A DNA stretch of 64,000 nt from Owenia fusiformis (taxonomy: Eukaryota; Annelida; Polychaeta; Sabellida; Oweniidae): NCBI GenBank assembly GCA_903813345.2, contig CAIIXF020000069.1, positions 1-64,000 on the forward strand, in the 5' to 3' direction. Position numbers and translations under genes: made by a program. Within the stretch, counting starts at the first letter, position 1; the number at the start of each line of letters is the position of its first letter. Under the pieces are notes generated by a model, which worked only from the letters and a program-made list of their open reading frames with translations, ran no database searches and was not told where the DNA came from. Below, piece after piece: positions 1,165 to 62,350 of the stretch.

Positions 1165-2181
1165 CTAATCTTTGGTCATTTTTCGAACATTTTCCAAGTC
1201 ACAAGAGTTGTTACTGTTGAGGAACCAATGTCCGAACTTTTTCGCTCGTGCTATTTTGACTTCGTTACCAATGACATAATTGTTATTTAAAACAAGTGGC
1301 CGAGTCTCTGTTGAATAATTGTGTGATCGTAAATACCAAAGTCCGTCTTCAATGATATTAAAGTCCAATAATTTGTATTTTAGATTGTGTTGTGACACAA
1401 TTATTTCATGTAAATATGTCTGATCATTAGACCCATCTGGTAGTTTTTTGTCGTCTGTAACATTTGAATATGTTTCCAAAAATGCATTTAGTTTGTCTAT
1501 CACTTTTGTGAAAACAACTTGTGTAGCATTAGTTGGTTGTAGCAAGAGGAAGCCTCCTGCTATCCGGTTATTCCCTGAGATCTTTGCACCAACTATGTCA
1601 TATTTTGACAGAGACTGAAGCAAAGGGAATGGAGAAGAAAACCACACAGCGTCGACCTCAAATAATAGGATTGTAACATTGTTTTTAAGCATCGAAAGAA
1701 GTAACATAGTCCGGGTTAACATATATCGTATATATCCTGCTTCCATGTACTCAACCTTTGTAGTAGAAAGCGAGTACATGACGGAGGTGACGTTTGGCCA
1801 ATCACGTCGAAGTTTCTTCAATGCGTTTTCATCCGTGGCAATAATAAGCACTTGTTCATGAACATTCATATTGACAGTGTTACATAACCAACTGTAGGTC
1901 ATTTCTAGATATGCTTCATTCACCATCGTCACAGCTACAATGCCCGTTTTAGCTTTATTACAAATCATTTTCGCCTGATCGATTAACATGGCTGATTTAT
2001 TTTGTTGCATTATCTTCTTTACTGTTGACTCAAAGGCAGTCTTCCTCGTGGTATAGGCAAGCTTTTTAATATTGTTCTCGAGGAAATTAAGTACATTTTG
2101 TTTTTGCAACAGAAAATTAGACATCAATACACCGACTGTTAGTCCTATCACTGCGACCCACAACTTTTGTTTAGTGTTCAT
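1165..2181 (-). CDS. Type II membrane glycosyltransferase, nucleotide-diphospho-sugar transferase (GT77-like) family
   Basis: This is an intronless 338-residue protein. Residues 8-25 form a single hydrophobic segment after a short basic N-terminus, the signal-anchor layout of Golgi glycosyltransferases. A stem of about 50 residues follows, then the catalytic domain from about residue 79 to 325. Family hallmarks are visible: GIVAVTMVNEAYLEM at the start, LLFEVDAVWFSSPFPLL around E175-V176-D177 (the DxD-type metal and nucleotide-sugar site, with E in place of the first D), a glycine-rich GGFLLLQPT, SNDQTYLHEI, and FGHWF near the C-terminus. Several N-x-S/T sites suit a lumenal domain. The start is the ATG at 2181, which sits 17 bases after a good 3' splice acceptor, so a 5' non-coding exon is likely. 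The donor and acceptor sugars cannot be told from sequence. A paralog lies at 15769-16779 on the other strand. Confidence 0.85.
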   Translation of the reverse strand: MNTKQKLWVAVIGLTVGVLMSNFLLQKQNVLNFLENNIKKLAYTTRKTAFESTVKKIMQQNKSAMLIDQAKMICNKAKTGIVAVTMVNEAYLEMTYSWLCNTVNMNVHEQVLIIATDENALKKLRRDWPNVTSVMYSLSTTKVEYMEAGYIRYMLTRTMLLLSMLKNNVTILLFEVDAVWFSSPFPLLQSLSKYDIVGAKISGNNRIAGGFLLLQPTNATQVVFTKVIDKLNAFLETYSNVTDDKKLPDGSNDQTYLHEIIVSQHNLKYKLLDFNIIEDGLWYLRSHNYSTETRPLVLNNNYVIGNEVKIARAKKFGHWFLNSNNSCDLENVRKMTKD

Positions 2182-15768: not shown

Positions 15769-16779
15769 ATGACATATAAAAAACAGTTGGGCCTCATTCT
15801 GGGCGGAATAATAATCGGAGTTTTGATTTGCAATATACTACAGGGGAATCATCATGAGGAAAAAAATCCTTTTGATGTGAACATGTTATCAAATGTTCAT
15901 GAAGGGGAAATTAGGCATGTTAAATGCAACAATCAAGATGAATCAACGGAGGTCATCAGAAATGCTAGAACTATCGCAAATAAAACTGATAATGGCATTG
16001 TCGCTGTGACGATGGTGAATGAAGCGTATCTAGAAATGACTTACAGTTGGTTATGTAACACTGTCAATATGAATGTTCATGAACAAGTGCTTATTATTGC
16101 CACGGAGGAAATGACATTGAAGAAACTGCGACGAGATTGGCCAAACGTCACCTCCGTTTTTTACACGATTTCAACGACTGATGTGACCGGACATGCAAAA
16201 TATGTTTGGAAATTGTTCCATAGGGCTTTGTTAGCACATTCATTGCTCAGAAATAACGTAAATATCCTACTGTTCGAGGTCGATGCTATGTGGTTCTCAT
16301 CTCCTTTTCCTCTACTTCGATCACTATTCCATTATGATCTAGTCGGGGCCCAGCTTTCTACAAGGACTCGCTACATAGCCCCAGGCTTTATTTTTGCACG
16401 GCCAACCATTGCGTCGCGAGATGTATTCGAGTGCGTAAAAGACAACTTTTTGAATGGACACTATATTGCAGGTGATGACAATATCTCACCCGACTTCAAT
16501 TATCAAACATATCTTCATGATGTTATTGTTTCACATCACAATCTCAGATACAAATTATTGGACTCTAACATTATTGAAGATGGGCTGTGGTACCTCCAAC
16601 TCCATACTACTGGTAATTCACATTGGCTGCCACCTGTTGTTTTGAACAACAACTGGATAATTGAAAGGGACGTGAAAATTGCAACAGCTAAAGAGTTCGG
16701 ACACTGGTTCCTCGATAAAACCAATTCTTGCGACTGGAAAAATGTTAGAAAAATAACTAAACAATGGTCATATAGATGA
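15769..16779 (+). CDS. Type II membrane glycosyltransferase, nucleotide-diphospho-sugar transferase (GT77-like) family, paralog of the gene at 1165-2181
   Basis: This is a 336-residue protein counted from the ATG at 15769. The frame is open 10 codons further up, but that stretch has no ATG and includes the likely splice acceptor, and the 15769 start aligns with the paralog. Residues 7-24 are the membrane anchor. The catalytic domain runs from about residue 75 to 322 with EVD at 170-172 inside LLFEVDAMWFSSPFPLL, then PGFIFARPT, NYQTYLHDV and FGHWF. Compared with the paralog, the D of NDQTY is Y here and GGFLLL is PGFIFA, so specificity may differ. Residues 76-112 are identical to the paralog. 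An AATAAA at 17177-17182 could end the transcript. It probably acts in the Golgi lumen; its substrate is unknown. Confidence 0.85.
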   Translation: MTYKKQLGLILGGIIIGVLICNILQGNHHEEKNPFDVNMLSNVHEGEIRHVKCNNQDESTEVIRNARTIANKTDNGIVAVTMVNEAYLEMTYSWLCNTVNMNVHEQVLIIATEEMTLKKLRRDWPNVTSVFYTISTTDVTGHAKYVWKLFHRALLAHSLLRNNVNILLFEVDAMWFSSPFPLLRSLFHYDLVGAQLSTRTRYIAPGFIFARPTIASRDVFECVKDNFLNGHYIAGDDNISPDFNYQTYLHDVIVSHHNLRYKLLDSNIIEDGLWYLQLHTTGNSHWLPPVVLNNNWIIERDVKIATAKEFGHWFLDKTNSCDWKNVRKITKQWSYR

Positions 16780-25210: not shown

Positions 25211-25968
25211 CTTAATTCCTACAAAAGCTAGCAATTCATTCCGGAGGTCAACTATTTTGAATGGAATAAGAATATGGAACAATTTACACCTTGACATGAG
25301 AAGATGTCAACCGATATCACGCTTCAAAAGATTAGTAAGAGATTACAGGAGCCCTGTCTCCATGCTACCCACTATCAAATTGGTAAACAAAATGCTTAGA
25401 TATGTTGAATGTGCTTTTAACAAACTCAGAGTGGGTCTTCTTTTAAAATCGCAACTATATGCTCATAATTTCACCAGTGTTAGTGATCCCTTTTGTAAAT
25501 GTGGATTACCACAAACACCTTCTCATTTTATCTTAAAATGTCCTCTGCTTGTAAACGAGCGTGAAACTTTATTTGCAGGACTGCGAACTTCAGATCTTCA
25601 TCTTTTGGTTCAGAGTTTGAACACAGTTGACAAAATTCAGTTTCTTTTGTATGGTCATGAAAATTTAGATAATTCATTAAATGAAAAATTAATAGAACTA
25701 ATGAGTCATTTTGTGAATCAAAGTTTGAGCCAAATTGATCGGTTTGGCTAATTTTTGCATGCATGTGTTAACTCATCCCTGGCACATGGGATTATAGTTT
25801 CTTATATGAGTTTTAACAAACTTTGATAATTTTTTTTTAATTTTATTGTATTCCTATTCATATTGTCTAATATTGCCGCTAATGTTTTTATAAAAAACTT
25901 TGGCAATCAACTGCATGTCTGTTATCGTTTACTAAAGGAATACATTTATGTATAATAAAAAAAGATAT
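25211..25968 (+). mobile_element. 5'-truncated LINE insertion with a 13-bp target-site duplication
   Basis: The 13-mer AATTGTAAAAAAA occurs at 25198-25210 and again at 25969-25981, directly flanking a 758-bp LINE 3' end. The insertion splits the right TIR of the enclosing long-TIR element. Truncation at the 5' end, a TSD in an A-rich target and an A-rich tail are standard for target-primed reverse transcription. It is the youngest layer of this nest. Confidence 0.85.
25221..25751 (+). pseudogene. LINE ORF2 C-terminus with cysteine-histidine knuckle
   Basis: The frame is open from about 25221 and is read from a truncated start. It contains RIWNNLHLD, a CQPISRFKR motif, then NKLRVGLLLKSQLYAHNF, the knuckle C-K-C-G-x7-H-x4-C, and YGHENLDN near the end. 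The same order is present in the LINE fragments at 45926-46926 and 54692-55360. These are the post-RT C-terminal regions of CR1/L2-type LINEs. RT and endonuclease are absent because of 5' truncation. Confidence 0.8.
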
Positions 25969-40528: not shown

Positions 40529-42009
40529 TTATATCATTAAGACACCTGGTAAGTGGATCGCATTGAATGCAAAATTATGGACACAAGCAACCCATGTCAA
40601 AAATCTCATGAGTTTCATGATTGGGGCGCATTTAGATCTCCCTTTATTGACGATATGAACTGTAGATTGATTGTCACTTTGAAATGTTATTCTCTTGCGT
40701 TTCCAATGTTGACCCCAGAGAATCGCTGCGCAAACTAAAGGATGTAATTCCCGAAATGCCATTGAATAATTGTTTGTTTGAATGAATGGCAATTGTTGAG
40801 GCCACTTTTCAGCGAACAATTTCCCGTTCCAGTATCCAGCAAATCCTTGTAGTGATGCATCGGTTGTCATATTCAGCTCACTGAGCAATGTTTCTTTGAC
40901 ATCGTAGAACATGTTAACGCCATTCCAGTTATTCAAGAAGGACTGTCACATGATGAGGTCTTCTTTGCAATTATCATTAAGATAAACTGCATTATTCAGG
41001 TTTTTCACGGACCTTGCCACTTGAAACAAGTGAAACACAAAGCTCCTCCCTGGTATAACGACTCTGTTTGCATAATATAAGATGTCCCAAAAATTGTAGT
41101 AAAGTGCGTTTCGTGCAAAATCTGCTATTCAACAAATCATCTATAAATTGTTGAATTCGAGACACTTTATTAATTGGAAGTCTTGCCTCCATCTTTTCTG
41201 AATCGAGAATTACACCAAGGTATTCCAAACATGTTGTAGGTCCTTCAATTTTGTGTGTAGCTAAGGGTACCCCTAAACGTCTTAATATCAATGTTAGTAG
41301 CGCCATGCATTGTTCTGTCGGCCTCTACGTCGGGTTTATCCAAAGTGCGGAAATCGTCCAATAAATGGAATATGTGTTCAATTCCATAGTTATTTGTTGC
41401 TATCCAACATATAGCTTGTAATAAATTGTCAAAAATCTTCGGGCTCGATCGTAGCCCAAAAGGTACTCTAGGACAGATATATATTTCTTCATTCCATTTG
41501 ATGAGAAGCCATTTCCATTGATCGGGTGAGACGGGTATGTGCTTAAATGCGTTCGAAATATCTACCTTGCACATTTGTGTTCTAGGTCCTAAACGAATTA
41601 TCGTTTTAATGGCGTCGTCGATTTTTACATATTTTAAAGAACACAAATCCTTGTCGATCATGTCGTTAATGCTAGGATTATCGTCATCGTCATGGGGTGA
41701 AGAAAGGTCAAAAATGAGTCTTTTCTTGCCAGAATACTTCCCAGTAGCAATTTCAATCGGACTGATTCGAAAATTGCTATACGGCGGCTCTTTGAATAGT
41801 CCTATTAGAAACCCGTTTTCGATATATTTTTGAAGTAGATTCAGGGTTCTTTCCGATTGTTTCCTGGATGAAGCCAGGTTTTTACAAGTGTATGATTTTA
41901 ACGAATTCATGTTTATGTCCAAAAGAATGTTAAATCCGTTTGCCAATCCGTTAATAAGATAATCCTTAAACTCTTTATTAGGATGGTGCGCCAATTCTTT
42001 TTCCATCAT
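40529..42009 (-). pseudogene. Reverse transcriptase-RNase H of the first DIRS-like element
   Basis: The start is the ATG at 42009. RT motifs are KRLIFDLSSPHD, CKVDISNAFKHIPV, VPFGLRSSPKIFD and HLLDDF (catalytic DD). A frameshift near 41300 continues as CLEYLGVILD and the thumb. A second frameshift and a TGA near 40950 precede RNase H, which shows TTDASLQGFAGYW, AFRELHPL and TFQSDNQSTV (D, E, D active-site residues). A last frameshift near 40550 leads to NDISDSLSRFQF, the linker seen before the recombinase in this element type. Confidence 0.85.
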
Positions 42010-49478: not shown

Positions 49479-50400
49479 TTACATTGAATTTATTCGAATG
49501 TAACGTTTCACAGCCTTGGTTTTCCAACGCCCTATTTTAGCTACTTGTTCTTCAGAGAGTTTATATTTGGTGAGGAGATCTGTGCTGCGACCGATACGAA
49601 AACTATGAGATGTGTATTTTGACTTTTCAAGATTATTCGCACACACCGCTAATTCTAGATGTTTACAAAAATATTGTCTGGTCACGGGTGAGCCATCATT
49701 TAGTACAAATAATTGATCGGTGGTATTGCTTTCTTTCCGTAACTTGACGTATTCTTGCATTAGTCTCACAGCGCAAATTTTTGACATTTTGGAACGTTCG
49801 ATGTGCAATTTAAAAGGTGTGGTCGATGCGTTGTGTTTATAATCCTTAAATGCGACAATAATCGATTTTTTCCTGATTTCTACCATCTTAAATTCTAAAG
49901 CGTGTGACGCCGAACCGCCTGTGGCTAATTCCGAAAGTCTCAGGAAAGCATGATACGCTAGTGAAAACATGGCAGTCATTAACGTACTTTCATATTTAGA
50001 CAAACACATTAAGGGTAAAACCCTAATCAATTTTGTTAATATTTTTTCGTTTATTGGAAGTATTGAGTCAATTGACGGCGACACCTTCGACAATCCCTTT
50101 AGCATTTTTCTTATTACAAACGAATCAGCCGGATCAGTTTTGTTGCACATTTTGTGATAATATGAAATAGCTGAAATCATTGTTGTAATAGTAGCACTAG
50201 CGTACTTTTCTAAAGACAAATGAGCTATGAATGCACTAAGCATTGCTGAAGTCACAGGAAAAATCCTTGACTGTTTCTGAACCGATGATGACAATCAATG
50301 TACTTTTCCCATGCCCAAATATACGTCGTTTTTGTAGATTTGGCCAACGATTTATTGATCAACACGTCTATCCTGTCTCTAACTTGAGATCTATAGTTAC
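49479..50400 (-). pseudogene. Tyrosine recombinase of the second DIRS-like element, catalytic part intact
   Basis: The main frame (50294-49479) is uninterrupted for 271 codons. It carries FLRLSELATGG (first catalytic arginine), SHSFRIGRSTD (H-x-x-R), IGRWKTKAV and KRYIRI (tyrosine nucleophile). It lacks its own ATG at the start. The N-terminal helical part, with IDVLINKSLAKSTKTTY and IWAWEKY, is in another frame at about 50400-50295, so one frameshift separates the two. The catalytic domain could still fold. Confidence 0.85.
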
Positions 50401-52595: not shown

Positions 52596-53888
52596 TTATT
52601 TTTTTCCCATGGGGAGATCCCAATGGCGGGTGTATAACGTCCTTTGTAAATCTTGTCTGGCCTCTTTGGATATCTGAACTTTCTTTGATGATTTTTTGCG
52701 TTTGTTTTTGTTGTCATACAAGGTTTGCCCCAATAAATCATAAAGTCTTCGAAGTGCGGCTCGACCGGGCCGCACGACTCGAGTTGCAAAGGCCAATTTT
52801 CCTAATAAGGATTCCAAATCACCCTGCAATATATATTTGCATTTCCTATATTTCTCTATTGAAGCTTGGAGAGGTATCATTTTATCAGCCGGCAATCGAG
52901 CCTCCCATCGCAGTGTGTCCAATTCGATACCAAATACTGTCATTGTTGTTGAAGGGCCGCAAGTTTTGCTCTCTTTTATGGGTAAATTCAATTGAGTTGC
53001 CAAACCCAATAATTTTTCTAGATCGCGCTTACAATTAGGTGAATCTGGGGGTCCGACGATTATGAAGTCATCTAAATAATGCCCGATATGATTTATTTGA
53101 AACGTCGGGGACCTTGCTATGTATTCAATTTCGCAACTGAGCGATTCAAATATCTTACAGGACGACGCACACCCCATAGGGAGTGTCTTATCAAAATAAT
53201 ATTTTCCTTTCCATAATATTCCAAGTAGATGATGATCATTTTTTTGAATTTGTATAATCTTAAAACTATTTTCTATGTCTGTTTTAGAAATAAGTGCTCC
53301 CCTACCATTGTCTTAAATTAATTCGATAATATTGTCTACCGATTGATAGGTTACTGAAGAGTCTTCTCCTGATATTCCGTCATTAACTGAACTCCCCTTA
53401 GGAAAACTGAGGTCGTGAATTATTCTGAATTTATTTGGTTCTTTCTTTGGTATTCGCCCGAGAGGACTGATCTTAAATGCATTTAAAAACTGTTTAGGTG
53501 GTTCAGCAAACGGTCCTATGATACGCCCATGACTTATTTCTTTCCGAAGATAAAAATTGATATCTTCCTCAGCCTGAGTTGCTGAAAAATGATTGCGTTC
53601 TGTTTGTTTAATTGATAATACCTGACCTGTGTAATTGATATTAAAACCAGACCTAAAACCATTAATGAGATAAGATGCCTTAGACGTGTCATACCCTTGC
53701 AAGATAACTTTAAGTGCATTTACATCAATAGGAGTAACCACGCTGAATTCGTAAGTTTCTACGCATGAGTTAAATATTTCAGTTTTCTCTATCGATTTAC
53801 TGACAGCTTGATCCCGTTTTGTGATCTGTTTTGCATTTTTTACACATATGGATGTAGGTGCAACCCTTTCGTGTACATTTGTTGACAT
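52596..53888 (-). pseudogene. Reverse transcriptase of the second DIRS-like element
   Basis: One frame runs from 53888 to 52596 with a single TAA at about 53313. The N-terminal part has YLINGFRSGFNI, FKISPLGRIPKKEPNKFRII and HDLSFPKGSSVND. After the stop the same frame continues with SKTDIENSFKI, LPMGCASSCKIFE and HYLDDFIIVG (catalytic Y-L-D-D), then FGIELDTLRWEARLP. The thumb and connection end at LPMGKK, where the insertion starts. It overlaps the gag-like frame at its 5' end, as is usual for this element type. Confidence 0.85.
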
Positions 53889-55908: not shown

Positions 55909-58060
55909 TGCAGTTTATATAGTTGTCCGGGGATGTTTGAGATGATTTACCATTTACTGTGACCTTTATTTTTCTATTTGAGAGGTATGAAATAATAAAA
56001 TTCAAGAGCTTTCCTGAAAAGCCATATGCTTTCAGCTTATGTATTAACAGATGGTGTGGTACCCTATCAAAAGCGGCCGAAATGTCAAAAAAGACCGACC
56101 TAATATCGAAGCCATTACTAAAATTTGTCCAAATAAAATCATGAATCGCTAGAAGTTGGATTTCATTGCAATGACCCTTTAAAAATCCGGATTGATATTT
56201 GTAAAGTAGATTGTTTTCAATAAGGTGCTTGTACATTTTATCATAGACTATCCTTTCAATGATTTTGGAAACAATGCTAAGGAGAGAGATAGGTCTGTAA
56301 TTGTTAAGATTATTTTTGCTATCTTTTTTATGTATAGGGCAAACATTCCCAAGTTTCCAAATTTGAGGAAAAGTGTTTGCCTGTAAAAGTTTATTGAATA
56401 AAATGTAGAGAGGAAATGAAATTGACTTTGAGCATATTTTGAGCATTTTGATGGTGATTTCATCAGGGCCATTGGCCTTGGAAGGGTCAAGATTATTTAT
56501 TATGTTAGTAATATCCTGTCTATCAAATGTAATATCACTTAACAGATTATCGCACCTCTGAGGAAATGGAGTGTCAAAGTGGTCAAGATTTTCATTTGAA
56601 TGATTTTTTTCAACAAAGAAGTTAAGAAAGGCATCAGATTTCTCTTGACTAGAACTGAAGATTATGCCTGACTGTTCCAATGTCGGAATTTGACTATTAA
56701 ATTTTTTGCCTAAACGTTTTTTGATAAGTACCCAAAATTTGTCATTGGCATGAGTCTCGCCATTCAATGAGTCAACCTGTTCATTTGTAAAATTTTCTTT
56801 GGTAGATGTTACGAGATTTTTAACAACTTCAGCTTGGGCCTTATAAGCCATATAGTGTTGCTCTGATTTGCTTAACTTAAACTTCAAAAACAATTTTTTC
56901 TTTTTTTGAATAGCATGAGCAATTATCTCATTATACCAAGGTTTATCATTGGCTTTTACTTTTTTGAGTTTGCTTGGAATGTGCAGTGTAAACAATGCCA
57001 TCATTTTATTTGTAAGCACTTCAGTCAAAATATTTACATCTTCAGTCTGATTAAAAGATTCATTCCAGTCAATATCCTTCATGTCTTGATTAAGTGCTTC
57101 GGTATTTGTTAAATAATATGTCCATACACTTTTAAGTTCAGACTCCTCTTTATGTAACAATGCATCAAGTTGGGTAAACAGAGTACAATGATCAGTTGAG
57201 CCTTTAGGTTCACACACCTTGGAAAAGTTCAAAAGGCCAGGTGAATTGGTAATTGTCAAATCGATACAGCTAGATGATGTTGGAGTAATCCTTGTGGGTT
57301 CTTTAACAGTTTGGTCAAATCCATTTTGAAATAGAATATCATTTAGAAGTTTCCCGGTGTAATCTTTATCTCCCTGGAGGAACCAAGATTTGCTTTTTGC
57401 ATTAAAATCTCCATTTAGAATAATCCCATCGAAATTAATGTTGTTCAATTGTTGGAGTTTTTGATTCATCAAGTTTAAATATTCATCTCTCTGATTGGCT
57501 GATTGCGAAGGGGAACGATAAAAGACCCCGTAAAGAAATTTTTTATGTTTAATTTTTAACTCAACCCACATTGCATCAAGGCCATCAATACTGAGATCAG
57601 GCCTAGGTGTCTGCAAAATGTTCTCGTGGGTGTAAATCATTAATCCGCGACCACTTGGAGAGTAAAGGGGCGTGTGAAATCCCTTCAGCAAATATTTATC
57701 ATGTATGATGTTATCTGTTAAAAGACCAGCTTCACATAGTCCTATAACATTAGCATTATTATTTCTACTCCAAATATCAAGGGCTTCAAATCTAGCGCCA
57801 TTATCAGCCCTGAGGCTATTTATATTTGAGAAAACTATATTTAATTCATCAGGCCCGGGATTACTTTCAACATCATTGGACAAGGTCAAAATGAGATCAG
57901 AAATATTGGGTTGACAGAAAAGTATACTGAAACCTGGTATAAGTAGTGACAGGCATGTAGTCAGCAACAGAGCCAGAGTGTACCTTGGATTTAGCTTGTA
58001 TTTATTTATACTGTAGAGTCTCCATGAAATGGACACTGGAACAAAAATTGAAACAAGCAT
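55763..58060 (-). CDS. LINE endonuclease-reverse transcriptase with N-terminal 2A-type motif
   Basis: The first in-frame ATG is at 58060, giving 765 residues. The frame is open without an ATG to about 58213, so the native start may be lost. The N-terminus is hydrophobic (residues 1-12 and 27-48), then D-V-E-S-N-P-G-P at 63-70. The endonuclease follows: NIVFSNINSL, CEAGL (E110), LNGDFN (217-220) and STDHC (D290, H291). RT has NYRPISLLS, FFDISAAFDRVPHH (658-665 core), VPQGSILGPLLF (720) and IYADD (748-751). It would nick DNA and copy LINE RNA at the target. The frame runs on 18 nonsense-like codons after YADD because of a frameshift. Confidence 0.85.
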   Translation of the reverse strand: MLVSIFVPVSISWRLYSINKYKLNPRYTLALLLTTCLSLLIPGFSILFCQPNISDLILTLSNDVESNPGPDELNIVFSNINSLRADNGARFEALDIWSRNNNANVIGLCEAGLLTDNIIHDKYLLKGFHTPLYSPSGRGLMIYTHENILQTPRPDLSIDGLDAMWVELKIKHKKFLYGVFYRSPSQSANQRDEYLNLMNQKLQQLNNINFDGIILNGDFNAKSKSWFLQGDKDYTGKLLNDILFQNGFDQTVKEPTRITPTSSSCIDLTITNSPGLLNFSKVCEPKGSTDHCTLFTQLDALLHKEESELKSVWTYYLTNTEALNQDMKDIDWNESFNQTEDVNILTEVLTNKMMALFTLHIPSKLKKVKANDKPWYNEIIAHAIQKKKKLFLKFKLSKSEQHYMAYKAQAEVVKNLVTSTKENFTNEQVDSLNGETHANDKFWVLIKKRLGKKFNSQIPTLEQSGIIFSSSQEKSDAFLNFFVEKNHSNENLDHFDTPFPQRCDNLLSDITFDRQDITNIINNLDPSKANGPDEITIKMLKICSKSISFPLYILFNKLLQANTFPQIWKLGNVCPIHKKDSKNNLNNYRPISLLSIVSKIIERIVYDKMYKHLIENNLLYKYQSGFLKGHCNEIQLLAIHDFIWTNFSNGFDIRSVFFDISAAFDRVPHHLLIHKLKAYGFSGKLLNFIISYLSNRKIKVTVNGKSSQTSPDNYINCSVPQGSILGPLLFLIYINDLPDTLSSKCFIYADDRSIFLPKSPNSTPK
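57851..57874 (-). other. 2A-type ribosome-skipping motif in the LINE frame
   Basis: The codons spell D-V-E-S-N-P-G-P, an exact match to the 2A core D-[V/I]-E-x-N-P-G-P, preceded by the leucine-rich SDLILTLSN that such motifs need. 2A peptides cause the ribosome to skip the G-P bond, so the hydrophobic leader would be released and the endonuclease-RT would start with proline. Active 2A-like motifs in this position are known from APE-type LINEs of several invertebrates. Confidence 0.75.
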
Positions 58061-58171
58061 TGTACTCAAGATTTTACATATAACTAAAATAGATATTATG
58101 CATGTTTTGATGTCAAAGAGTTGCCCTAGGTTATATTGAGGATGATACAGTGTAAAGCATATTCCCAGCAA

Positions 58172-58333
58172 GAGAGTACTGATTGTTATCAGGAGAATTA
58201 AAGTGAGCTTAGAAAATAACTAGATTTTGGAAATTGAACGAGTTCAATTTCAGACTCCAGATCTAGACTTTTTTTAGCCGAGTCATCCAGAATAAGCCAA
58301 GTCATCCAAAATAAGCTAAGTCATCCAGCAAAA
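58172..58333. other. LINE 5' flank and start of the simple-repeat block
   Basis: Contains AGACTCCAGAT at 58252-58262, whose inverse recurs at the hairpin at 60132-60158, and a short AAGTCATCCA duplication. Confidence 0.4.
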
Positions 58334-58530
58334 GATGGATGGATGGATGGATGGATGAAAAAGGAAGGAAGGAAGGATAGGATAGAATAGGATGGGACGA
58401 TAGGATAGAATAGGAAAGAAGGATAGAATAGAATAGGAAGAAGTGATAGAATAGGAAGGATAGGAAGAAGAGGATACGAAGCAAGGGTAGATAGGAAGGA
58501 TAGGATAGGATCAGAAAGGAAGGATGGATG
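58334..58530. repeat. Purine-rich GGAT/GGAA/GATA microsatellite
   Basis: Starts as pure GGAT repeats, passes through GGAA, and becomes a mixed AGGATAGAATAGG pattern. The serine/proline-rich minus-strand frames across it are artefacts. Confidence 0.9.
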
Positions 58531-58549
58531 CATTTTTCAATATTTTCTT

Positions 58550-59850
58550 CTCTACTCTTGACTTTCTATCAGGATACCATCAGATTGATTTTTCTTGAAA
58601 TTTCAAAACGCCATTACTTCCGAACCGGAAGTTGGATCGAAATTTGATTTGCAGATTCGGATTCCTGACAAAATTCTACCCCTAATTCATAATTCATACA
58701 TTAAATTTGGCGAATTTTTATTTTGACCTACTTTTCGGACATGCCATAACTTCGGAACCGGATGTCGAATCGAAATTTGGTTTGCAGATTCGGATTTCTG
58801 AGAAAACTCAAACGTTAAATTTGGAGAACTTTTTATTTTGACCTACTTTTCGGAAACCGTATCTCAAAAGTGGGTCAAAATACTTTCTGACGGCAAAAGG
58901 CTAACGCTATAAGCACACTCTTGGCTACATGTATACACAATTTCGAGGAATATAATTAAAGTGTAGTGTCAGAATCGCAAAAATAAGGATAAACTATGAA
59001 TTTGACTTAGATTTTGACCTAGGGATTTTGGTGTCCAAATTTTGAAGTTAGGTAGCCTTCGAGGTTCCCTTCTTTCATAGGCTTTCATTATTTTAAGCTG
59101 TACTTAGTCTATATCTCGTATTTTACACTTCAAAAAAATCTTTTTTCCCATTGACATAACATGGGGCACCAAATTTAGCGATTTTTGAGCTTTCAAAATG
59201 TCATAACTTCCGAACTGGTAGTCGGATCGAAATTTAGTTTGCAGATTCGGATTCCTGAGAAAATTCTATACTAAGTTCATAACTCACACATTAAATTAAG
59301 ATAATTTTTTTTTTGACCTACATTTCGGACACCATATCTCAAAAGTGGGGCAAAATACTTTCTGACGGCAAAAGGCTAACACTATTAGCGCACTCTTGGC
59401 TACATGTATACAAAATTTCGAAGAATATAATTAATCTGTAGTGTCAGAATAGCAAAAATAAAGAAAGACTTTGAATTTGACCTAGATTTTGACCTAGGCA
59501 TTTTGGTGTCCAAATTTTGGAGCTAGATGGCTTTTGATGTCCCCTTCTTTTAAAAACTTTCATTATATTTAGCTGAACTCAGTCTATATTTCGTATTTTT
59601 CACTTCAAAAAAATCTTTTTTCCCATTGACTTAACATGGGCACCAAATTTAGCGATTATTGAGCTTTCAAAACGCCATAACTTCCGAACCGGAAGTCCGA
59701 TCCGAATTTGGTTTTCAGATTCGGAATTCTGAGAAAATATCCTATAAGACTAATATCCCAGACATTTGATTCGGAGAATTTTTTTTTGGACCTCGTTTTC
59801 GGACACTGATATCTCGAAATCGGTTTGAGATATCAAAAAACTAAATCGAC
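58550..59850. repeat. Long satellite unit of about 475-590 bp, roughly 2.5 copies
   Basis: The phrase CATAACTTCCGAACCGG and its variants begin units at about 58606, 59197 and 59669. Each unit continues with GGATCGAAATTTG, CAGATTCGGA-T-CTGA, TTTTGACCTAC, CTTTCTGACGGCAAAAGGCT and CCATTGAC-TAACATGGG. The first unit contains an extra internal repeat of about 120 bp. No coding potential. Confidence 0.85.
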
Positions 59851-60086: not shown

Positions 60087-60117
60087 AAAGAAGAAGAAGA
60101 AGAAGAAGAAGAAGAAA
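60087..60117. repeat. AAG trinucleotide microsatellite
   Basis: About ten AAG units. Confidence 0.9.
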
Positions 60118-60131
60118 ACTGACGAAAACAA

Positions 60132-60158
60132 TAGACTCCAGATTTCATCTGGAGTCTA
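60132..60158. other. Perfect 12-bp hairpin with TTC loop, followed by CTAA
   Basis: TAGACTCCAGAT and ATCTGGAGTCTA pair perfectly around TTC, and the right arm overlaps a CTAA. AGACTCCAGAT also stands at 58252-58262, so the two positions may be the ends of one 1.9-kb element that includes the microsatellite and satellite. Confidence 0.75.
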
Positions 60159-60584
60159 ATAAGTTCCTAAACTGGGGAAAATTCAAATTGAAGTCATTGG
60201 TTGTATTTGAAGAAGTTACCTTACAAAATCCCACTCTGAACATACCTATCGCAGATCTCCATTGCATAATACTAACCCCCATGTGCAACCACAGCCCCAG
60301 GGATGACAGCAGCAGCACTCCACCAGCAATTTTGGAGGTCATGAAACTTTACAAATAAACTCACAATTGCACTTTTAAGACATGCTGAAAATGTAAGCAG
60401 AATACATAATTATGAAATGAATAAGTCTGAAGATACAATTGGTCAGAAAGTATTAAAATCTGCTTGAAATTGTGAAACATTGTATTCTCTATTCCACTCA
60501 GTTTAAAAATGCATTAGAATTAATAATACGCAGCTATGGGTATAAGCATTGTATAGAATAACAATCCTCTATCTACATTATTAT
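60159..60584. other. No gene seen
   Basis: AT-rich. A short minus-strand frame (60145-60342) has a hydrophobic N-terminus but no recognisable domain. Confidence 0.3.
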
Positions 60585-62350
60585 TAATAAAGCTAGAAAT
60601 GTAGCTATTTAAGAAACACATGACAGCCATCTTGAAAAACGGTGGCCTTTACACGTTATTTTACGATTTTGCTGTAACTTGAAAAATAGTCGAGCAATTT
60701 TATTCATATTTGATTTGTGAATACTCATAGGCATGGCACACTGTTTTATGATACTTAGGCTAGAAGGCGGGCACTTTGAAAATAGCCGCCATTTTTACAT
60801 GTGTCATTTAACGCTTTTACTCTCACTCGATCAAAACATAACAGAGTGATTTGGTTCATATTTGATATGTAAATACTCATTAGCATGGCACACTGTCTTA
60901 TAAGAATTCAGCTAGTAGGCGGCCATTCGTATCTGTGTTATTTTGTGATCTTTGCTATAACTGAAAAAGAAGTAGAAGGATTTAGTAAAAATGTCAGCCA
61001 TGGCTGGTCAATGGGATTTGCTACTCTTTGGCATTGCTGTTATCTAGTTATCCTTGAGAATTTACCTGAAAGACAAAATGGTGTGTTAACGATGTATTTA
61101 AAGACTTGTTTAAGAGACTTCTCCATGGCATTTTTTCTTTATTGCGTTTTGTTTTGAATTTTTAACACCATAATAACACCATAACAACCCACTATGCAAC
61201 TTTTCAACACGTAGAATGTTAAAATATTAAATATGAAAATACCTTTTTCATAATGGAGTCAAATAGGAAAAATGACTTAATCTGAATTATTGTCAAATGC
61301 ATTGGCGCGATTGTCTTGAAGTTTACAGAAATAATAAGTAATGATATGATGAATAGTTTGAATTGATATAAAAAAAATCACTGTCACTACAATTTAGCCA
61401 TTAAACAGTACCCTGTTGATCATATTCTCCGAATAATATTAAAGTATCAGTAATGGTATCGCTAATACTAAAGTATCAGTATTGCACACCAAAGTGTACT
61501 TTGGTGTGCTAATTTAGCTGCTGAAGTTTGGGTCACTACTACCTATCTCAAGAAACAATGAAACATCCTAGGGGGAGTACCTGATTTTCGCCAGAAATTC
61601 AACAAATCTGGAAGAGAAAGTTTACAATTGAATAGGCGCACGACACGGGGAAATATGCTAGGGCTTCTAGGATTTTTTGAACCCATGGGTTTCTAAGATA
61701 AAAGATCTTTTAAAAAAGGCACAACGTCACCAACGTGCAGATGTCAATCTAGGCATCAGCATATACAATTTGAACCAAATCCATCCACTGATGTTTTATC
61801 ACATATTACACTTTAAACGAAAAATGGCGGCCATTTTGAAATTGATCCGCCATGTCTTTAGCAGAGCTCCTTTGTCCCTTGGCATCAACACATAAAGTTT
61901 GAACCAAATCCGTCAATTGGCTTTTGGATTATCAAAGATTACGTTTTTATGAAAAATGGAGGCCATTTTAAAATTCAGTAGCCATCTTGAAATTTTTTCT
62001 TTGACAGAGCTCATTTGTCCCTTGGCCCCGACATATACAATTTGAACCAAAACCGTCAATTGGCATTTGAGTGATCAAAGATTACGTTCTTTTACGAAAA
62101 ATGGCAGCCATTTTGAAATTCAGCCACGGTGACGATTTTTTCTCGAATAAAGCAACTGTGTCCATAACCATCATCATACATGTATACAGACAAATGGCGG
62201 CCATTTTGATTAATAGTGGCCATTTTGAAAATATGTTTTTGAGCTGACTTCCTAGATCTCTAAGCATCAGAATATAGAATTTGAACCAAACCCATCAAAT
62301 ACTAGTTTATTTAATATATCAATGAAAAATTGTGGCAGGTTTGAAATTCA
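60585..62350. repeat. Right copy of the 1.8-kb inverted duplication (partner 43450-45232)
   Basis: The orientation is opposite to the left copy. It contains a perfect 26-bp palindrome at 61484-61509 (GCACACCAAAGT-GT-inverse), which in the left copy (around 44150) has decayed. From about 61800 it runs into the tandem array described below, which is longer on this side. Confidence 0.85.

Follow-up and report, generated by a model that had tools for sequence, protein, structure and literature searches.

Structure of the LINE copy and its surroundings

The window analysed here, a 64,000-nucleotide stretch of contig CAIIXF020000069.1 from the annelid Owenia fusiformis, carries on its minus strand an ORF of 765 residues that begins with MLVSIFVPVS and in which a leader, a 2A core, an endonuclease and a reverse transcriptase (RT) follow one another (Table 1). 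Two Pfam endonuclease models (PF14529, 5e-11; PF03372, 9.6e-7) and RVT_1 (7.2e-25) matched this ORF, all above their curated cut-offs and all downstream of the core. The motifs LCEAG, GDFNA and SCIDL lie between SNIN and STDH in the endonuclease domain, and we take these five to be the catalytic motifs of an APE endonuclease. An APE-like endonuclease thus stands N-terminal to an RT in one protein, and the Pfam matches identify the element as an APE-type LINE, in agreement with the original prediction. When the ORF was compared with PDB sequences, only three R2 retrotransposon sequences were matched at E up to 0.001, all through the RT part; a search with just the 250 aa of the endonuclease stretch gave no PDB hit at E up to 1. 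A single-sequence AlphaFold2 model of the endonuclease (mean pLDDT 40) was too poor to use and was set aside. The endonuclease assignment therefore rests on Pfam.

Table 1 Features of the LINE copy and of the open frame upstream of it, in window coordinates.
Feature	Start	End	Strand	Basis or remark
In-frame stop bounding the open frame	58220	58222	minus	
Open codons preceding the ATG (53)	58061	58219	minus	no in-frame ATG
765-aa ORF spanning leader, 2A, APE endonuclease and RT to just past YADD	55763	58060	minus	
Leader as first described, ATG to NPGP (70 codons)	57851	58060	minus	exactly ATG to last P of the core
Hydrophobic segment 3, YTLALLLTTCLSLLIPGFSILFC	57914	57982	minus	best 19-residue mean 2.18; limits hand-set
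Upstream context of the core, QPNISDLILTLSN	57875	57913	minus	translation; F2A numbering of PMC12846837
2A/StopGo core DVESNPGP	57851	57874	minus	predicted skip between G and last P
APE endonuclease domain, SNIN to STDH	57188	57829	minus	Pfam PF14529 and PF03372; places of motifs
RVT_1 match with AFD and YADD	55793	56335	minus	ORF residues 576-756
Continuation of the LINE protein, in another frame	55363	55857	minus	tblastn: 55623-55399 matches LINE fragment 46926-46141
Last piece of the LINE protein, a separate ORF	54692	55261	minus	ORF list, tblastn

The copy is damaged at its 3' part, a point absent from the original prediction. YADD lies at residue 748 of 765 and the long ORF ends soon after, with two later pieces of the protein in other frames, so that the copy is broken after YADD. 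Parts of both pieces resemble a LINE fragment at 46926-46141, and the last piece also resembles one near 25.2-25.7 kb (tblastn). The 765-aa ORF matched only itself when searched against the window by tblastn; only the C-terminal pieces had matches in the LINE fragments at about 25.2 and 46 kb. These C-terminal fragments of related LINEs, at 25215-25751 (plus strand) and 46926-45944 (minus strand), share about 44-56% mutual identity over parts.

At the other edge, the copy is probably truncated, with its 5' end at or near 58222 and tandem arrays beyond. No related frame was visible when the minus strand was translated over 58223-58900 and 60100-62000 and inspected by eye. A tandem array with a 475-base unit in about two copies occupies 58815-59819, upstream of the LINE, and beyond it lies a perfect 12-base fold-back at 60132-60158; a fold-back or terminal-repeat element beside the 5' edge of the LINE was considered as a candidate. 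Rfam returned nothing at gathering scores for the window. Elsewhere, two uninterrupted ORFs at 1165-2181 (minus strand) and 15769-16779 (plus strand) match nucleotide-diphospho-sugar transferases (PF03407), each with a hydrophobic N-terminus, and their middle parts look alike by eye. Three further minus-strand intervals, 49479-50243, 41245-42009 and 52596-53888, hold a tyrosine recombinase ORF (PF00589), an ORF with one sub-threshold RVT_1 match and two ORFs that are RT-like by eye, possibly parts of DIRS-like elements.

The 2A core and its sequence context

The core DVESNPGP occupies residues 63-70 of the ORF, in frame, and has the D(V/I)ExNPGP pattern of the 2A/StopGo class. Its last proline is residue 70 and the SNIN of the endonuclease starts at residue 78, eight residues further on. 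The claim of a 2A core that is exact and lies at the boundary with the APE endonuclease domain is therefore borne out. This is the only NPGP among the 127,996 six-frame letters of the window, against 0.28 expected, and the full pattern D(V/I)ExNPGP would be expected 3e-5 times by chance (both values computed from six-frame letter frequencies). The rarity of the exact core speaks for a StopGo site.

In F2A numbering the core runs from D12 to P19 and is preceded by leucine at positions 7 and 9, serine at position 10 and asparagine at position 11. According to PMC12846837, the F2A mutations D12A and N16A abolish activity, while the alanine mutants L7A and L9A keep 34% and 82% of it, respectively. 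L7, L9, D12 and N16, residues whose mutation lowers or abolishes F2A activity, are all kept in the LINE, which argues for a StopGo site. E14, which makes contact with rRNA in the structure described in PMC12846837, is also present. A favourable context would be a leucine-rich stretch ending in (A/S/C)G before D at position 12; L7, L9 and S10 fit this pattern, whereas position 11 is N. This asparagine argues against a StopGo site, as 2A sequences with D at position 12 show a strong preference for G at position 11 (PMC12846837). Judged by its sequence, skipping by the LINE 2A is likely, yet may be reduced.

Searches for relatives were made in two collections, viral_contigs and genome_contigs. 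With the ORF as query, one stretch of viral_contigs matched a pattern and none was confirmed; with the first 185 residues, 77 stretches of genome_contigs matched and again none was confirmed. Both collections consist of viral and prokaryotic DNA, and only close relatives are within reach of the search method, so the absence of confirmed relatives from them means little. The lack of relatives showing conservation nevertheless counts against the StopGo reading, in collections poor for eukaryotic LINEs, as does the restriction to a single copy that is broken after YADD, in which selection on the motif may have ceased. Because the copy is broken, its intact 2A motif is no evidence of present selection. 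On balance we hold with fair assurance that the motif is most likely a StopGo (2A) site, at which the endonuclease-RT would be separated from an N-terminal product of hydrophobic character.

The hydrophobic leader and the open frame upstream

The original prediction described a hydrophobic leader starting at the ATG at 58060. The open frame does not begin at this ATG; it continues upstream for 53 codons to the stop at 58222-58220 and, counted from there to the end of the core, comprises 123 residues with hydrophobic segments at residues 5-25, 37-59 and 80-102 (hand-set limits). The extension (58061-58219) contains all of segment 1 and the larger part of segment 2, which spans the ATG. In the 70-codon leader a single segment exceeds Kyte-Doolittle 1.6, with a best 19-residue mean of 2.18. 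The leader found no esterase in Pfam. A match to DUF3394 (E 0.039) had a bit score under the cut-off of that model and was discarded.

Hydropathy was compared with 3,000 dinucleotide shuffles each of the extension, the leader and the whole, with stops removed before hydropathy was measured and in a frame that had been chosen after having been seen. The extension was open in 2.3% of its shuffles, and its best 19-residue mean was reached by 1.6%, its two segments by 1.1% and its mean hydropathy by 0.6%. For the 70-codon leader the corresponding values were 2.5% open, 5.5% for the best 19-residue mean, 37% for one segment and 27% for mean hydropathy, and for all 123 codons 0.13% open, 3.4% for the best 19-residue mean, 2.2% for three segments and 1.4% for the mean. 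The extension is therefore more hydrophobic than its shuffles, whereas the 70-codon leader mostly is not. A hydrophobic N-terminus, as originally predicted, is supported, but the leader alone falls mostly within the range of its shuffles in mean and segment count. As to base composition, T makes up 51% of codon position 2 in the extension against 28% of position 1 and 32% of position 3 (p 0.035), a bias that T-richness alone would not give, and 41% in the 70-codon leader against 26% and 40% (p 0.10).

These values bear on two alternative accounts of the leader. The first, which we regard as quite possible though short of probable, is that the leader is longer than described, namely a membrane protein with three or more segments; this copy, cut off near 58222, would retain only its 3' part. 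The 53 open codons upstream of the ATG, the rank of the extension among its shuffles for mean hydropathy and number of segments, and its excess of T at codon position 2 all favour such a leader. Against it, the extension is without an ATG, the frame was picked post hoc, and in a cruder, weaker control an open run of at least 53 codons was found upstream of 6.8% of 20,000 random window positions. In addition, T-rich DNA yields hydrophobic residues without selection, and T is hardly more frequent at position 2 than at position 3 in the codons of the 70-codon leader. Between the stop and the ATG at 58060, which has A at -3, lie three out-of-frame ATGs of at most nine codons each, and these also count against a longer leader. 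A single-sequence AlphaFold2 model of the leader (mean pLDDT 63.5) is helical nearly throughout, some loops included, and therefore has no discriminating power; the longer leader, moreover, is drawn from a single copy.

The second account, to which we give slightly less credence, is that the upstream hydrophobicity is a by-product of T-rich sequence and of the leucine-rich stretch of the 2A itself, with no membrane role for the leader. The frequency with which shuffles equal the leader from the ATG in mean hydropathy and segment count agrees with this account, and many 2A-like sequences include a tract whose side chains are long and hydrophobic (PMC4981915). Segment 3 (57982-57914), on the other hand, lies outside the leucine-rich stretch that adjoins the core, and the extension exceeds most of its shuffles, neither of which a by-product would lead one to expect.

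Proposed mechanism

For the StopGo site that we favour, we infer a scheme of skipping, of its efficiency and of membrane binding by the leader. The nascent 2A chain would stall the ribosome while Gly occupies the P site, and the upstream peptide would be released. Translation of the APE-RT would then resume from Pro and give a soluble protein of the cytosol with access to the nucleus. The exit tunnel accommodates 30-40 amino acids (PMC2978324), and segment 3, which ends only 20 residues before the skip site, would for that reason still be inside the tunnel at the moment of the skip. With a translation start at the ATG, skipping would therefore come before any targeting by segment 3 and only an unskipped minority would be inserted; a short hydrophobic stretch would be exposed beforehand, and the skip would decide whether segment 3 anchors the product. 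If intact copies start upstream, as the longer leader implies, segments 1 and 2 would emerge first and would already have brought the ribosome to the ER ahead of the skip, which would leave a multi-pass leader behind in the membrane and free the APE-RT on its cytosolic face; such a leader would stand in for a membrane-linked ORF1.

An unskipped product would fare differently. Four K/R residues precede segment 3 and none follows it, so by the positive-inside rule the unskipped enzyme would sit in the ER lumen, where it could not reach DNA. Some upstream sequences located in the translocon inhibit 2A (PMC2978324), and the leader could therefore influence its own skipping. A LINE lineage in which a multi-pass membrane leader replaces ORF1, with ER recruitment, cytosolic release by 2A and translocon-tuned skipping all combined, is an extension of this scheme that we consider rather unlikely.

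Regulated dual targeting, in which incomplete skipping would be selected so that a set share of the APE-RT is membrane-bound or secreted, appears improbable. It has a precedent in the 2A signal sequence of sea-urchin NLR proteins, for which about 80% skipping in vitro is given as a qualitative estimate (PMC4981915), and the known inhibition of 2A at the translocon (PMC2978324) means that membrane engagement could tune skipping. The architecture here is, however, unlike that of the NLR case, and an endonuclease-RT has, in our judgement, no evident use in the secretory pathway.

Finally, a coincidental match within a decayed element is very hard to credit as the origin of the motif, given an in-frame core at a domain boundary, in a leucine-rich context, for a pattern expected 3e-5 times, even though this is a single broken copy and motif scans of viral_contigs found D(V/I)ExNPGP in some frame in 24 distinct public contigs (several of them near-copies of one another), which shows that the octapeptide does arise elsewhere. 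These contigs have no detectable relation to the LINE (best E 0.53 in tblastn of the ORF against all 24) and serve as background only.

Comparison with known systems

Odon 2013 (PMC3708506) reportedly dealt with 2A-like sequences in APE-type LINEs. The elements concerned are said to fall within the clades Rex1, Crack, L2, CR1 or Ingi. Later papers cite 2A in APE-type LINEs as established, which the original prediction also held for some invertebrates, and the element described here is comparable in that it is an APE-type LINE whose ORF contains a 2A-like sequence. PMC11512398, PMC5009743 and PMC10294476 offer nothing decisive beyond a citation of Odon 2013. Among the papers listed by literature searches on LINEs and 2A, no title or abstract opening described a multi-segment membrane leader before a 2A in a LINE, which is not proof of its absence from print. 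The present LINE enlarges a published class by one element, whose core is preceded by an unusual N.

There is also a likeness in sequence to F2A of FMDV, whose octamer we take to be DVESNPGP, identical to the LINE core. F2A has A at residue 10 and G at residue 11, and the LINE differs from it by S for A at position 10, N for G at position 11 and T for K at position 8. Both have leucine at positions 7 and 9 (PMC12846837).

The original interpretation finds partial support. Localisation decided by skipping, a plausible idea that the original prediction had raised as an added possibility, is not new: a secretory or cytosolic fate set by skipping was published in 2016 for the leader of sea-urchin NLR proteins, another family (Roulston et al. 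2016; PMC4981915), and PMC12846837 repeats this result. SpNLR of Strongylocentrotus purpuratus is alike in having a hydrophobic N-terminus and a 2A ahead of the main protein, where the skip would decide the route (PMC4981915). In SpNLR, however, a 26-aa N-terminal 2A-like sequence on immune receptors is itself the signal, whereas the segments of the LINE are separate from and upstream of its 2A. The core of the LINE ends at residue 70 from the ATG and at residue 123 of the open frame, and its 2A is accordingly not an N-terminal signal in the sense of Roulston 2016. Should other copies keep the leader, 2A-controlled targeting would extend from immune receptors to mobile elements.

A further parallel exists within LINEs themselves. 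Some CR1, RTEX and ZfL2 elements have an esterase ORF1 whose product is thought to be membrane-linked (PMC5408684), and these are alike in encoding a putatively membrane-linked product upstream of pol. In contrast to them, the present LINE has hydrophobic segments only, which are joined to pol via the 2A. If other copies keep this leader, it would offer single-ORF LINEs a membrane-linked substitute for ORF1.
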